From the NCBI RefSeq assembly GCF_009827395.1, contig NZ_WTYX01000002.1:248001-312000 (forward strand): a DNA stretch of 64,000 nt, given 5' to 3'. Source of the stretch: Pontixanthobacter aquaemixtae (lineage in GTDB: Bacteria; Pseudomonadota; Alphaproteobacteria; Sphingomonadales; Sphingomonadaceae). This document shows, piece after piece, positions 1,861 through 34,543 of the stretch; within the stretch, counting starts at the first letter, position 1; every line of letters begins with the position of its first letter. A program made the position numbers and the translations under genes. The notes under the pieces were generated by a model. The model was not told the origin of the DNA, did no database searches, and saw only the letters and a list, made by a program, of their open reading frames with translations.

Positions 1861-1892
1861 ACGCCCGGTGTGGAAACACGCCGGGCGTTTTC
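1861..1892 (+). terminator. Rho-independent terminator after ctrA
   Basis: ACGCCCGG at 1861-1868 pairs with CCGGGCGT at 1881-1888 around a short loop and runs into TTTTC. It lies 26 bases after the ctrA stop codon and should end the ctrA transcript. The MITE-like element begins only a few bases later. Confidence 0.85.
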
Positions 1893-1898
1893 GTGCCC

Positions 1899-2166
1899 TT
1901 GTTTGATGCCCTCAGTCGCCGGGCGCGAGCCATCCGGCTCGCTTGGCTTTCCTCGCTTCCGCTCCCTGACGGTCGCTTCGCTGCGGGCGGCCGGTCGGCC
2001 TTGCGGTCCGCCCGTCGGCGGACCGGATCGATGCGATACTGAGATGGCTTGGAATGGCCCGGCCCGACCCAGACGGGCCGCAAGCGCGACCGCGCGTCGC
2101 CCGTTAGGGCTGTAGCCTAAGGGAGCGGATGCGACCGCCGGCACTTGAGGCAAAACAAACAAAAAA
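1899..2166 (+). repeat. MITE-like repeat, copy 1
   Basis: This element fills most of the 376-base gap between ctrA and trmB. Over its central and right parts it is very similar to 33640-33949: shared blocks include GCGGACCGGAT, GATACTGAGATGGCTTGGAA and GCCTAAGGGAGCG. The right end (CTTGAGGCAAAACAAACAA) is the reverse complement of a diverged left end near 1899-1948, so it has imperfect terminal inverted repeats of about 48 bases. A second degraded copy of the right end (CTTGAGGCTAAAACAAAG) sits at about 2176-2193 just before trmB. It has no convincing ORF and is probably a non-autonomous mobile element or a structured intergenic repeat. Confidence 0.7.
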
Positions 2167-2210
2167 CTCCACCGCTTGAGGCTAAAACAAAGACTCTCTA
2201 ACGGAGCCAC

Positions 2211-28273: not shown

Positions 28274-28304
28274 GCGTTGGCTCGCGCAGCACGAGGACGA
28301 GCCG

Positions 28305-28766
28305 GTGGTGAACAGGACCAAGATCAAACCAGAACTGAAGACAGGCGAAACCGGTCCGCTCAACCGCCATTGGCGCGATCTGTTTCTCGATATTCTGGCA
28401 GAAACTTCGAATGTCAGCGAAGCCGCGCGGCGGGCCGGAATCAATCCGAGCCGGGCATATAAGCTGCGCCGCGAAGAAGAAGGCTTCGCGCGCTCGTGGC
28501 GGGCGGCGCTGATCGAAGGATATGAGCATCTCGAGCTCGACCTGCTTGCCCGCCTGCGTTCGGGAGAGGCCAAGGATGGTCCCCGCCATGACAATGCCGC
28601 CGCTTTGCGATTGCTCGCTCTGCACAAGGATACAATGGCGCAGGAAAATGCGCAGCGGCTGGGCATGGATAGCAACCGTGCACGAGAAATCATCGAAGGG
28701 AAGCTGGAAGAATTGCGCCAGCGCGTGATCGCGCGCCGCCAGGCACGGGGCGATACCACCCAGTGA
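28305..28766 (+). CDS. GTA terminase small subunit-like protein
   Basis: The N-terminal helix-turn-helix (ETSNVSEAARRAGINPSRAYKLR) and C-terminal coiled coil (EIIEGKLEELRQRVIARRQ) match the small terminase at the start of RcGTA-like clusters. It would help the large subunit to package host DNA. The frame is open from an ATG at 28254, but that codon lies in the leader hairpin; the GTG at 28305 (or 28308) has GAGGACGAG upstream and is preferred, giving 153 residues. It overlaps the large terminase start by four bases (GTGA). Confidence 0.75.
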   Translation: MVNRTKIKPELKTGETGPLNRHWRDLFLDILAETSNVSEAARRAGINPSRAYKLRREEEGFARSWRAALIEGYEHLELDLLARLRSGEAKDGPRHDNAAALRLLALHKDTMAQENAQRLGMDSNRAREIIEGKLEELRQRVIARRQARGDTTQ

Positions 28767-32399: not shown

Positions 32400-33548
32400 A
32401 TGGATGACACCACTCTTTCCACTTCCGACACTGCCGATCAGCTCGACGCCAGCTTCGATATCGTCGCGCGGCAGGACAAGACCGAGCAAGACATTTCCTC
32501 GCTCCGCAGCGATGTCGATGAGGTGAAAGCCCGCCTCGACAAAGTCGCCAAAGCAGCCGCACGCCCTGCCCTGTCTGGCACGAGCGCCAGCGCCGAAGTC
32601 AAAGGCTTCGTCGATGGCTATCTGCGCCATGGCCGCGAACATGAAATCAAATCGGTCAGCGGACAGACGCCCGCCGATGGCGGCTATGCCGTACCGCAGG
32701 AAATCGATGCGGTCATTGCCCGCGAATTGACCGAAATCAGCCCGATCCGGGCCATTTCGCAAGTGGTCCAAACCGGCAGCGCAGGTTACCGCAAGCTTGT
32801 CTCGACAGGTGGTACTGCCAGCGGGTGGGTCAGCGAAACCGCCGCCCGGCCCGAAACCGACACGCCGCAATTTTCGGAAATCGCCCCGCCCACGGGCGAG
32901 CTCTACGCCAATCCCGCGGCAAGCCAGGCCATGCTCGACGACGCGGCATTCGATCTTGAAAGCTGGCTGGCGAGCGAGATTGCGATGGAATTTGCCCGCG
33001 CAGAAGGCGCAGCCTTCGTCAGCGGATCGGGCAGCGACCAGCCCGCAGGTTTCCTCAGCGCGCCCACTTCAACCGCCGAAGATTCCGCGCGCGCGTTTGG
33101 CACGCTGCAATATATCGGCAGCGGCGATGATGCGGGGCTGGGTTCCAATCCCGAAATCAGCCTGATCGATCTGGTCCACACGATGAAATCGGGCCACCGC
33201 CAGGGCGCAAGCTTTGTGATGAACTCTTCGACATTGGCCGAAGTTCGCAAGCTCAAAACCACCGACGGTGCATTTCTGTGGCAGCCCGGGCTGGTCGATG
33301 GTCAGCCTGACCGGTTGCTTGGATACCCTGTGGTCGAAGCCGAGGATATGCCCGATATTGCAACCGGCGCATTCCCGATTGCATTCGGCAATTTCCGCCA
33401 CGGCTATCTGATCGCCGAACGCAGCGCGACACAGATCCTGCGTGACCCGTTCACCAACAAACCTTTCGTGCACTTCTATGCAACGAAGCGCGTAGGCGGC
33501 GGGGTTCTCGATAGTGCAGCGATCAAGCTGCTCAAGATCGAGAGCTAG
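32400..33548 (+). CDS. GTA major capsid protein
   Basis: HK97-fold capsid (gp5). The N-terminal ~65 residues form an acidic coiled coil (the delta domain, removed by the protease), followed by the shell domain with DGGYAVPQEIDAVIARELTE, SGWVSETAARPETDTPQFSEI, and the C-terminal RVGGGVLDSAAIKLLKI. 382 residues. A 449-base interval holding a hairpin and a repeat element separates it from gp6, so the capsid gene can be expressed at a higher level than the genes after it. Confidence 0.93.
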   Translation: MDDTTLSTSDTADQLDASFDIVARQDKTEQDISSLRSDVDEVKARLDKVAKAAARPALSGTSASAEVKGFVDGYLRHGREHEIKSVSGQTPADGGYAVPQEIDAVIARELTEISPIRAISQVVQTGSAGYRKLVSTGGTASGWVSETAARPETDTPQFSEIAPPTGELYANPAASQAMLDDAAFDLESWLASEIAMEFARAEGAAFVSGSGSDQPAGFLSAPTSTAEDSARAFGTLQYIGSGDDAGLGSNPEISLIDLVHTMKSGHRQGASFVMNSSTLAEVRKLKTTDGAFLWQPGLVDGQPDRLLGYPVVEAEDMPDIATGAFPIAFGNFRHGYLIAERSATQILRDPFTNKPFVHFYATKRVGGGVLDSAAIKLLKIES

Positions 33549-33592: not shown

Positions 33593-33638
33593 CGCACCCG
33601 CATCGCCGCATGCCCCTCCCGCGCGCGATGCGGGTGCG
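33593..33638 (+). terminator. 14-bp hairpin after the capsid gene
   Basis: CGCACCCGCATCGC at 33593-33606 is perfectly complementary to GCGATGCGGGTGCG at 33625-33638, with an 18-base loop. ATTTGTTTGTT follows and may serve as a weak T run. It may terminate or reduce transcription past the capsid gene, or protect the capsid mRNA. The repeat element begins right after it. Confidence 0.6.
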
Positions 33639-33639
33639 A

Positions 33640-33949
33640 TTTGTTTGTTCAGCCTCAAGCGCCGGCGTTCGCGTCCGCTCACTAGGCTATCCTCGCTTTC
33701 GCTCCCAGACGGCCGCTGCGCTGCGGGTGGCCGGTCGGCCGGTCGGCCTTGCGGTCCGTCCGTTGGCGGACCGGATCAATGCAATACTGAGATGGCTTGG
33801 AATGGTCCGGTCAGCGACAGCTGATCGCAAGCGCGGAGTCGAAGCCGAAGGCGCAGACGGCCAAAGGCCACCTGCACGCGCGTCGCCCGGTAGGGCGGGA
33901 GCCTAAGGGAGCGAATGCGACCGCCGGCGCTTGAGGCAAAACAAACAAG
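33640..33949 (+). repeat. MITE-like repeat, copy 2, inside the GTA cluster
   Basis: Left end 33640-33688 (TTGTTTGTTCAGCCTCAAGC...) and right end 33900-33949 (...CTTGAGGCAAAACAAACAAG) are inverted repeats of about 49 bases with few mismatches. The inner part is highly similar to 1899-2166 and in the same orientation. A second degraded copy of the right end lies at about 33955-33986, just before the gp6 start, as in copy 1. It contains overlapping short frames but no plausible protein. The whole gap 33549-33997 is taken up by the hairpin and this element. Confidence 0.78.
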
Positions 33950-33997
33950 TTTCCGGCGACTGAGGGACCAAACAAACAACTCTCAAAAGGACGCATT

Positions 33998-34543
33998 ATG
34001 CGCCGAACCATTATCACGCCTGCCGAGCTTGGCGGGGCCGCATTGGACGAGCTGAAGCAATGGCTCGCTATCACCACAGATTTGCAAGATGCTGCGCTTA
34101 CGGCGCTGCTCGAAGCCAGCGTCGAAAGCTGCGAAGCCTTTACGCGGACTATGCCGCTTTCGGTCACGGGCGAAGAAATTCTTCCTGCGCGGCGCGACTG
34201 GCAATCGCTATCGACACAGCCTGTTCAGGCGATCACCGGCGTTGACGGCATTCCCGCAGAAGGCTCTCGATTTGCTCTCGGTTCCGATGCTTACGAAATC
34301 GAACTCGAAGCCGATGGCAGCGCGTGCGTCCGTGTTCTTCAGCAAGGATCGGCTGGCCGGATCGCTGTTCGCTTTGTCGCCGGTCTGGCGCCCGGTTGGG
34401 GGTCGCTACCCGAAGGGCTGAAGCATGGCATCATCCGCCTTGCCGCAGCCCGCTATCGTGATCGCGATAGCGGTCAATCGGCCTCACTGCCGGACAGCAT
34501 AACCGCTTTGTGGCGCCCGTGGCGCAGAACGCGCCTGACGTGA
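33998..34543 (+). CDS. GTA head-tail connector (gp6-like)
   Basis: The 181-residue protein begins MRRTIITPAELGGAALDELKQWL, the start of the phage gp6-like adaptor family, then an N-terminal helical domain with ASVESCEAFTRTMPL and a barrel region, ending with RLAAARYRDRDSG. In RcGTA the adaptor ring sits below the portal. It is preceded by AAAGGACG. It overlaps the next gene by four bases (GTGA). Confidence 0.82.
   Translation: MRRTIITPAELGGAALDELKQWLAITTDLQDAALTALLEASVESCEAFTRTMPLSVTGEEILPARRDWQSLSTQPVQAITGVDGIPAEGSRFALGSDAYEIELEADGSACVRVLQQGSAGRIAVRFVAGLAPGWGSLPEGLKHGIIRLAAARYRDRDSGQSASLPDSITALWRPWRRTRLT

Follow-up and report, generated by a model that had tools for sequence, protein, structure and literature searches.

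The BOX elements of Streptococcus pneumoniae and S. suis are described as intergenic mosaics of a few exchangeable modules with predicted stem-loops (PMC3049150), and the RIME and AB/C palindromes of the Rhizobiales are described as mosaic or palindromic intergenic repeats of alphaproteobacteria, with their function given as unknown (PMC2573895). The REP sequences and BIMEs are palindromes of 20-40 bp with a terminal GTAG or CGTC tag, often arranged as dimers, and one account of them has REPs of the CGTC type abundant in alphaproteobacteria, seemingly without a dedicated transposase (PMC3733652). The element considered here is found twice in a stretch of 64,000 nucleotides of Pontixanthobacter aquaemixtae (assembly GCF_009827395.1, contig NZ_WTYX01000002.1, positions 248,001 to 312,000, forward strand), the whole of which we call the window. 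It is close in kind to BOX and RIME, and its unusual traits are hairpins that differ almost purely by double changes and an enrichment beside genes for small-terminase-like (TerS-like) proteins. As in BOX, exchangeable modules occur in varying combination and hairpins are predicted, but BOX is organised as boxA-(boxB)n-boxC with tandem middle modules, whereas in the window element two halves, each with several hairpin modules, are set face to face; unlike BOX, again by comparison of descriptions, it has stem variants that are common to different copies and short extra end units on its outside, and it comes from a different phylum. To our knowledge, BOX elements have no transposase of their own. 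RIME and AB/C, which are likewise likened to the window element by description, belong to hosts of a different order, and we know of no TerS-like gene linked to either. Palindromy is also shared with the REP/BIME units, but the units of the window element are far longer, its ends carry neither tag (judged by eye) and the genome has no RAYT-type gene. MITEs in general are short, non-coding and dispersed, with inverted ends; the window element is also short and non-coding, with many dispersed copies and terminal inverted repeats, but its internal modules reshuffle, which is not the build of a deleted IS. Among the matches listed in a search of the open-licence full-text literature we found no description of the family, and one paper tabulates REP counts by genome, Erythrobacter cryptus among them, in passages that do not describe the hairpin element (PMC12306157). 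The reading that we favour, and regard as probable, is that of a mosaic, palindromic element of the BOX/RIME kind, dispersed and non-autonomous, that has spread in trans.

Copy 1 extends from about 1902 to 2160 on the forward strand and joins an A-type left half to a B-type right half, as recognised from the sequence, covariance-model matches and an RNA fold. Before it stands an ORF (1139-1834, +) that we take, with the earlier note, to be ctrA-like, with its terminator hairpin at 1862-1892 (+), a hairpin that also occurs in relatives with an empty site; behind it stands an ORF that is presumably trmB-like (2211-2912, +). The named CtrA proteins nearest to the CtrA-like protein of the window are those of Erythrobacter, at 98%, which would put the window among the Erythrobacteraceae. 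The left half of copy 1 (1910-1981, +) is matched at E 2.5e-8 by R1, a covariance model of one half that was built from 29 sequences; the P1 hairpin, with the loop ATCC, lies at 1926-1941 (+) and P3 at 1989-2000 (+), both placed by sequence and by covariation across copies, and P4 lies at 2005-2024 (+), placed by sequence and by stem variants picked for pairing. The right half reads inward from its outer end on the minus strand (2078-2150; R1 E 2.3e-14), and an extra short end unit follows at 2165-2192 (+). Copy 2 (33640-33949, +; sequence and fold) has B-type ends on both sides, with its left half at 33653-33754 (+; R1 E 6.1e-8), its right half at 33868-33936 (-; R1 E 5.5e-10) and an extra short end unit at 33950-33979 (+). 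A perfect 14-bp hairpin precedes it (33593-33638, +), and it is set between an ORF that we take, again with the earlier note, to be a GTA major capsid-like gene (32400-33548, +) and an ORF that is presumably the next gene of the GTA cluster (33998-34543, +).

The two copies have the same orientation and share 227 of 253 aligned bases (90% identity), their longest identical block being 23 bases, where 200 mononucleotide shuffles gave none above 14. Both are near-palindromic: when the left end of 60 bases is aligned with the reverse-complemented right end, 84-85% of aligned bases agree in either copy, and in copy 2 the arms of 43 nt are 86% complementary. Each copy is more stable in folding than all of its shuffles (z -4.1 for copy 1 as RNA; -184.4 kcal/mol and z -10.5 for copy 2). 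ORFs overlap the copies in several frames, and none of those in the ORF listing that lie within either copy looks like a transposase. The earlier note, which had compared the two copies by their letters, is thus borne out in what it said of their places, their common orientation, their inverted ends, the lack of any transposase to be seen in them, the ctrA terminator before copy 1 and the 14-bp hairpin before copy 2, and the degraded extra right end before each following start codon, of which we find one short unit behind each copy; what it missed is the modular hairpin build with its compensated stems.

A genome-wide blastn search, which the same note had proposed, places the element, whose inverted ends are conserved, at about two dozen sites in its own genome, or at 24 loci when half copies beside TerS-like genes are counted. 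The end motif CCTCARNCGCCGG occurs there 45 times exactly, 44 of them inside the 24 loci, and this concentration together with the number of places excludes a chance origin. R1 finds 41 halves in the own genome (G000) and has matches in 19 of 39 relatives besides it, with the highest number, 58, in the congener G005 and 51 in G016, from another genus of the family; from other families there are 11 halves in G037 and three weak ones (E 0.002) in G035. This is a scattered family of mosaic hairpin elements in sphingomonad-type bacteria, real and well supported, with members of about 180-320 bp. The 20 full copies of the own genome have a mean identity of 0.70 and a maximum of 0.86, and no recent, near-identical pair that would speak for current activity was seen among them. 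An exact 17-base pattern, too strict to gauge spread, occurred in the own genome and one other across 119 genomes of the family; a search of phage sequences with the element gave no match, and a search of plasmids gave seven Sphingobium records, each with only 64 bases in common at 78-80%. In a large genome of another genus (G018, contig 24; L362, 1-320), three halves form a direct tandem array of 100-base period and adjoin a tRNA-Leu gene at 332-416.

Read inward, a half consists of a T-rich end, CCTCA(G/A)NCGCCGG, the P1 hairpin, CTTGGCT or CTTAGGCT, an exchangeable second module that exists in several versions, a P3 hairpin centred on RGTY, TTGCGG or TCTGGCT, the P4 hairpin and the short centre around which the two halves face each other. 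The motif after the T-rich stretch is CCCTCAGTCGCCGGGCG in type A ends and GCCTCAAGCGCCGGCG in type B ends, and CCTGCGGGCG and TTTCGCT are further end types. P1 has the loop NTCC and a closing C-G pair (C-NTCC-G), and in type B an unpaired TC/CT step is retained within it and the surrounding bases covary. Outside many elements of the own genome lie extra end units of about 30 bases, oriented like the neighbouring end; by the exact end motif, none of them lies away from full or half elements, bar one unexplained motif.

The stems of these hairpins change in pairs. In 29 aligned halves, which are a picked and distinct set and whose cells are not independent events, 92.6% of cells are paired and 62 have changed on both sides, where shuffles give 21.2 and slid controls no more than 8, and only 2 have changed on a single side; by two other measures, how many pairs show a double change and how many further pair types occur, the halves stay within the range of the shuffles (205 and 404 of 500, respectively, reach the observed value). 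The 63 distinct P1 stems, located by loop and closing pair alone, contain 301 Watson-Crick, 8 G-T, 10 A-C and 59 other pairs, the last being mostly the TC/CT step of type B; P4 stems were picked for pairing and are excluded as evidence. Wobble pairs are thus few and about equal on both strands, and that G-T and A-C pairs are both rare and similar in number fits matching or correction as DNA, for example by template switching at palindromes, better than selection on one RNA strand; as a strand test, the 8 and 10 mismatches are too few to name a transcribed strand. The copies offer a ready-made set of hairpin exchanges, nearly all of them Watson-Crick double changes, which can be used in the study of palindrome correction and recombination as DNA.

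Presence and absence differ between relatives. When 15 sites were compared with six congeners, 26 of 73 alignable cells held at least one half and 47 were empty; the site of copy 2 is empty in four of four congeners, all of which keep a hairpin there, and the site of copy 1 holds a single half in each of G004 and G005 and is empty in another three. Two species with an element at the same site often have it with different modules or in different orientation, and either the same spots have been hit again or modules have been replaced in place. The own copy from the same site had a mean rank of 0.39 of 20 (random 0.525) in 16 comparisons and ranked first or second in 4 of them, with flanks of the compared sites 79-95% identical; these comparisons are those of the 26 filled cells in G004, G005 and G007 that have two halves in both species, and others, such as the two-half cells of G006, are omitted. 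Copies at one site are thus scarcely more alike than copies taken at random. Part of the pattern is plain inheritance, since four same-site pairs keep a memory of their site. Target-site duplications are unreadable, the congeners being too diverged at the junctions and the T/A-rich ends hiding short repeats. In the own genome (C2:508419-509492; L013, L020) two elements flank one gene, and the first of these sites, which follows a gene that we take to be thiG-like, is empty in congeners G003 and G006. At one intergenic spot that holds our element in the own genome, G004 has an inverted pair of another repeat (CGTCATTCCCGC...; L287, site S24), which in our view resembles the CGTC-1 REPs.

We suggest that an enzyme acting in trans, and recognising the hairpin ends, would have inserted the copies. 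Recombination or template switching between copies after insertion would then swap modules and re-match stems, and the same processes between the two arms of one element, as DNA, would likewise re-match stems. A spot right behind a stop codon or a terminator would be where an insertion does least harm, and it may also mark a real target preference.

If the enzyme were an ordinary IS transposase, encoded outside the sampled genomes or since lost, the element would be a classical MITE, a reading that is tentative and that we hold to be a good deal less probable than the mosaic one just given. Inverted ends, small size, many copies and presence/absence differences all agree with it, but a search for an IS with matching ends, which the earlier note had thought might exist, came out against it: among the 106 halves listed of the 203 in G000, G004, G005 and G016, no facing ends enclose a transposase. 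These 106 include two facing pairs with a gap of 250-4000 bp, one of which encloses a TerS-like gene, the closest long form found, and the other (in G016) a different gene that is presumably ppa. Y1 transposases of the RAYT/IS200 family were also sought, and there is none in the own genome or in six near-complete congeners, the only one among 11 family genomes searched being in the incomplete congener G002; RAYT/Y1 was rejected as the mobiliser, the gene being missing from the own genome.

The link with TerS-like genes is the other lead to a mobiliser. At L038, L057, L078 and L079, half-elements lie directly before genes of one kind, and phrog_4044, a family of phage small terminases, is matched by the two of them that were tested (E 1.9e-23 and 1e-15); of three of the proteins searched against Pfam, one had one match far below cut-off and the other two none, two had no match in NCBIfam, and one had none in PDB. 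Searches for TerS-like genes gave 53 and 36 matches, and 49 of these 89 were examined, the short GTA-type ones, the weak ones and some others being left out. A half lies within 700 bp of the domain in 19 of these 49 stand-alone genes, as against 0.77 expected from the density of halves, with distance and score cuts that were set after looking and with two of the 19 resting on weak model scores (L144, E 0.015; L163, E 0.025); several of the associated genes are orthologues that were counted separately, and separate events are therefore fewer than 19. By genome, the genes with a half number 3 of 3 in G000, 2 of 2 in G003, 2 of 5 in G004, 3 of 5 in G005, 1 of 2 in G006, 1 of 3 in each of G011, G013 and G021, 3 of 3 in G022 and 2 of 5 in G023, spread over six genera (g1, g5 (weakly), g7, g15, g16 and g17); those in G001 (1), G007 (2), G009 (2), G010 (1), G012 (2), G016 (5) and G020 (2) have no half.

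A two-part system would explain this link: a TerS-like gene, related to phage and GTA small terminases, with a half-element as leader or tail, its HTH protein binding the hairpin ends, a nuclease partner, perhaps the large terminase of the GTA, doing the cutting, and the short element being a gene-less derivative, related to it as REPs are to RAYT. The enrichment itself and the complete set in the own genome speak for this, as does the orientation of the halves, the outermost detected half reading in gene direction in all 14 genes that have upstream halves above the cut. A facing half stands directly behind the stop codon of the TerS-like gene in G004 and in G023, one of the two long-gap facing pairs encloses such a gene, six genes have the leader frames described below, and genomes with more TerS-like genes have more halves (Spearman 0.74, n=17 genomes, phylogeny ignored). 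The association is partial, however: 30 of the 49 genes have no half, among them all five in G016 with its 51 halves, no locus frames the gene cleanly with a single left and a single right half, the gene in G023 C12 has a weak upstream half, below the cut, that is reversed (L345; E 0.07), and the partial orthology of the associated genes lowers the count of events, as said. A small-terminase match to phrog_4044 in the GTA cluster of the window (28296-28565, +) has no half nearby. We know of no cutting activity in TerS, and for that reason, together with the 30 genes of 49 that lack halves, an unseen IS ranks above the TerS-like protein as the mobiliser. The two-part system seems to us unlikely. 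Were the link causal, it would be a testable new way of moving short DNA.

Two features of the TerS-like genes themselves are of interest here. Of the 14 genes that have halves upstream, we read 11, setting aside three that are preceded by a full element: in six, at L142, L149, L154, L156, L346 and L353, a frame that starts before the half runs through it and ends in an ATGA that overlaps an in-frame start of the main gene, and in the other five no such overlap was found. The halves in the six coupled leaders differ in type and modules and the overlap is kept; at L346 the leader starts with GTG and the main start is one of several. A half may therefore serve in some genes as a translation-coupled leader, a lead only, because open frames are frequent by chance in GC-rich DNA and five of the six appear, by eye, to belong to one gene subgroup. 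The motif TCCTAC, mostly within YTKTCCTAC(A/T), is found in the 520 bp before the domain of 43 of the 49 genes (for example at L142, L146, L164 and L169), as against 65 of 866 background pieces of 520 bp from longer loci, and on that pattern it looks like a promoter or operator of the TerS-like family; a wider regulon was rejected, the genome-wide count being 49 against 55 in the reversed control, with no excess. A still bolder proposal, that this family with its own TCCTAC motif is the recognition partner of the hairpin element, with halves as translated leader or tail and full elements gene-less, and that a recognition protein of phage/GTA packaging has thus turned to a transposition-like or DNA-marking role, strikes us as marginally more unlikely than the two-part system in general.

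The mosaic element spread in trans also has to be weighed against a functional RNA at the 3' ends of mRNAs, which selection would maintain as a stabiliser, a processing site or an aid to termination. Such a role would suit the very stable folds, the compensated stems and the positions of the copies, 14 of 22 in the own genome having one end no more than 10 nt from the stop codon of a gene that points at the element, a count that leans on boundaries set by hand. An RNA kept by selection fits poorly, however, with the 47 of 73 congener comparisons in which the site is empty and with G-T and A-C pairs that are about equally rare (8 and 10). Nor does a T-run follow the hairpin, each strand running from a T-rich 5' end to an A-rich 3' end, and no Rfam family is matched in the window at gathering thresholds; we consider this role improbable.

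The stop-codon count comes from a tabulation of the 22 own copies, whose boundaries were placed by hand while viewing the sequence and whose neighbouring genes were called by a simple codon-composition rule, and it bears equally on the preference for terminators that the earlier note had proposed after the manner of class C group II introns. Both window copies do lie behind terminator-like hairpins, and these were there beforehand, as that note implied: the gp5 hairpin is present without an element in G001, G003, G006 and G007, and the ctrA terminator likewise in, for example, L210. Genome-wide, five of the 22 copies have a terminator-like hairpin that points into one end and three more have one just outside the far end, making 8 of 22 against 3 of 55 window genes with such a hairpin within 100 nt of the stop, so that some association stands; as a rule it does not, since 14 of 22 copies have no such hairpin, three of the eight hairpins are on the far side, the count per end is 8 of 44, and copies more often abut a stop codon. 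A position at gene 3' ends describes the sites better, with terminators coming second, and a true preference for terminator hairpins is as doubtful in our eyes as the RNA role. A class C group II intron, which that note had itself denied, is rejected for want of an Rfam match in the window at gathering thresholds and by structure, and an attC-like site is rejected as the end motif points the wrong way relative to the attC consensus.

Among 80 named ctrA loci, in a collection that may omit the present species and its near kin, the half profile had no match (nhmmer, E up to 0.1). Two Erythrobacter loci (L218 and L222), which the half profile does not pick up, have a hairpin mosaic of like plan (e.g. 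GCGAGGGCGCCTCCGCGCCCTCGTCCTCGG) directly behind the ctrA stop codon, and the spot behind ctrA seems to be used there by a sister type of element.
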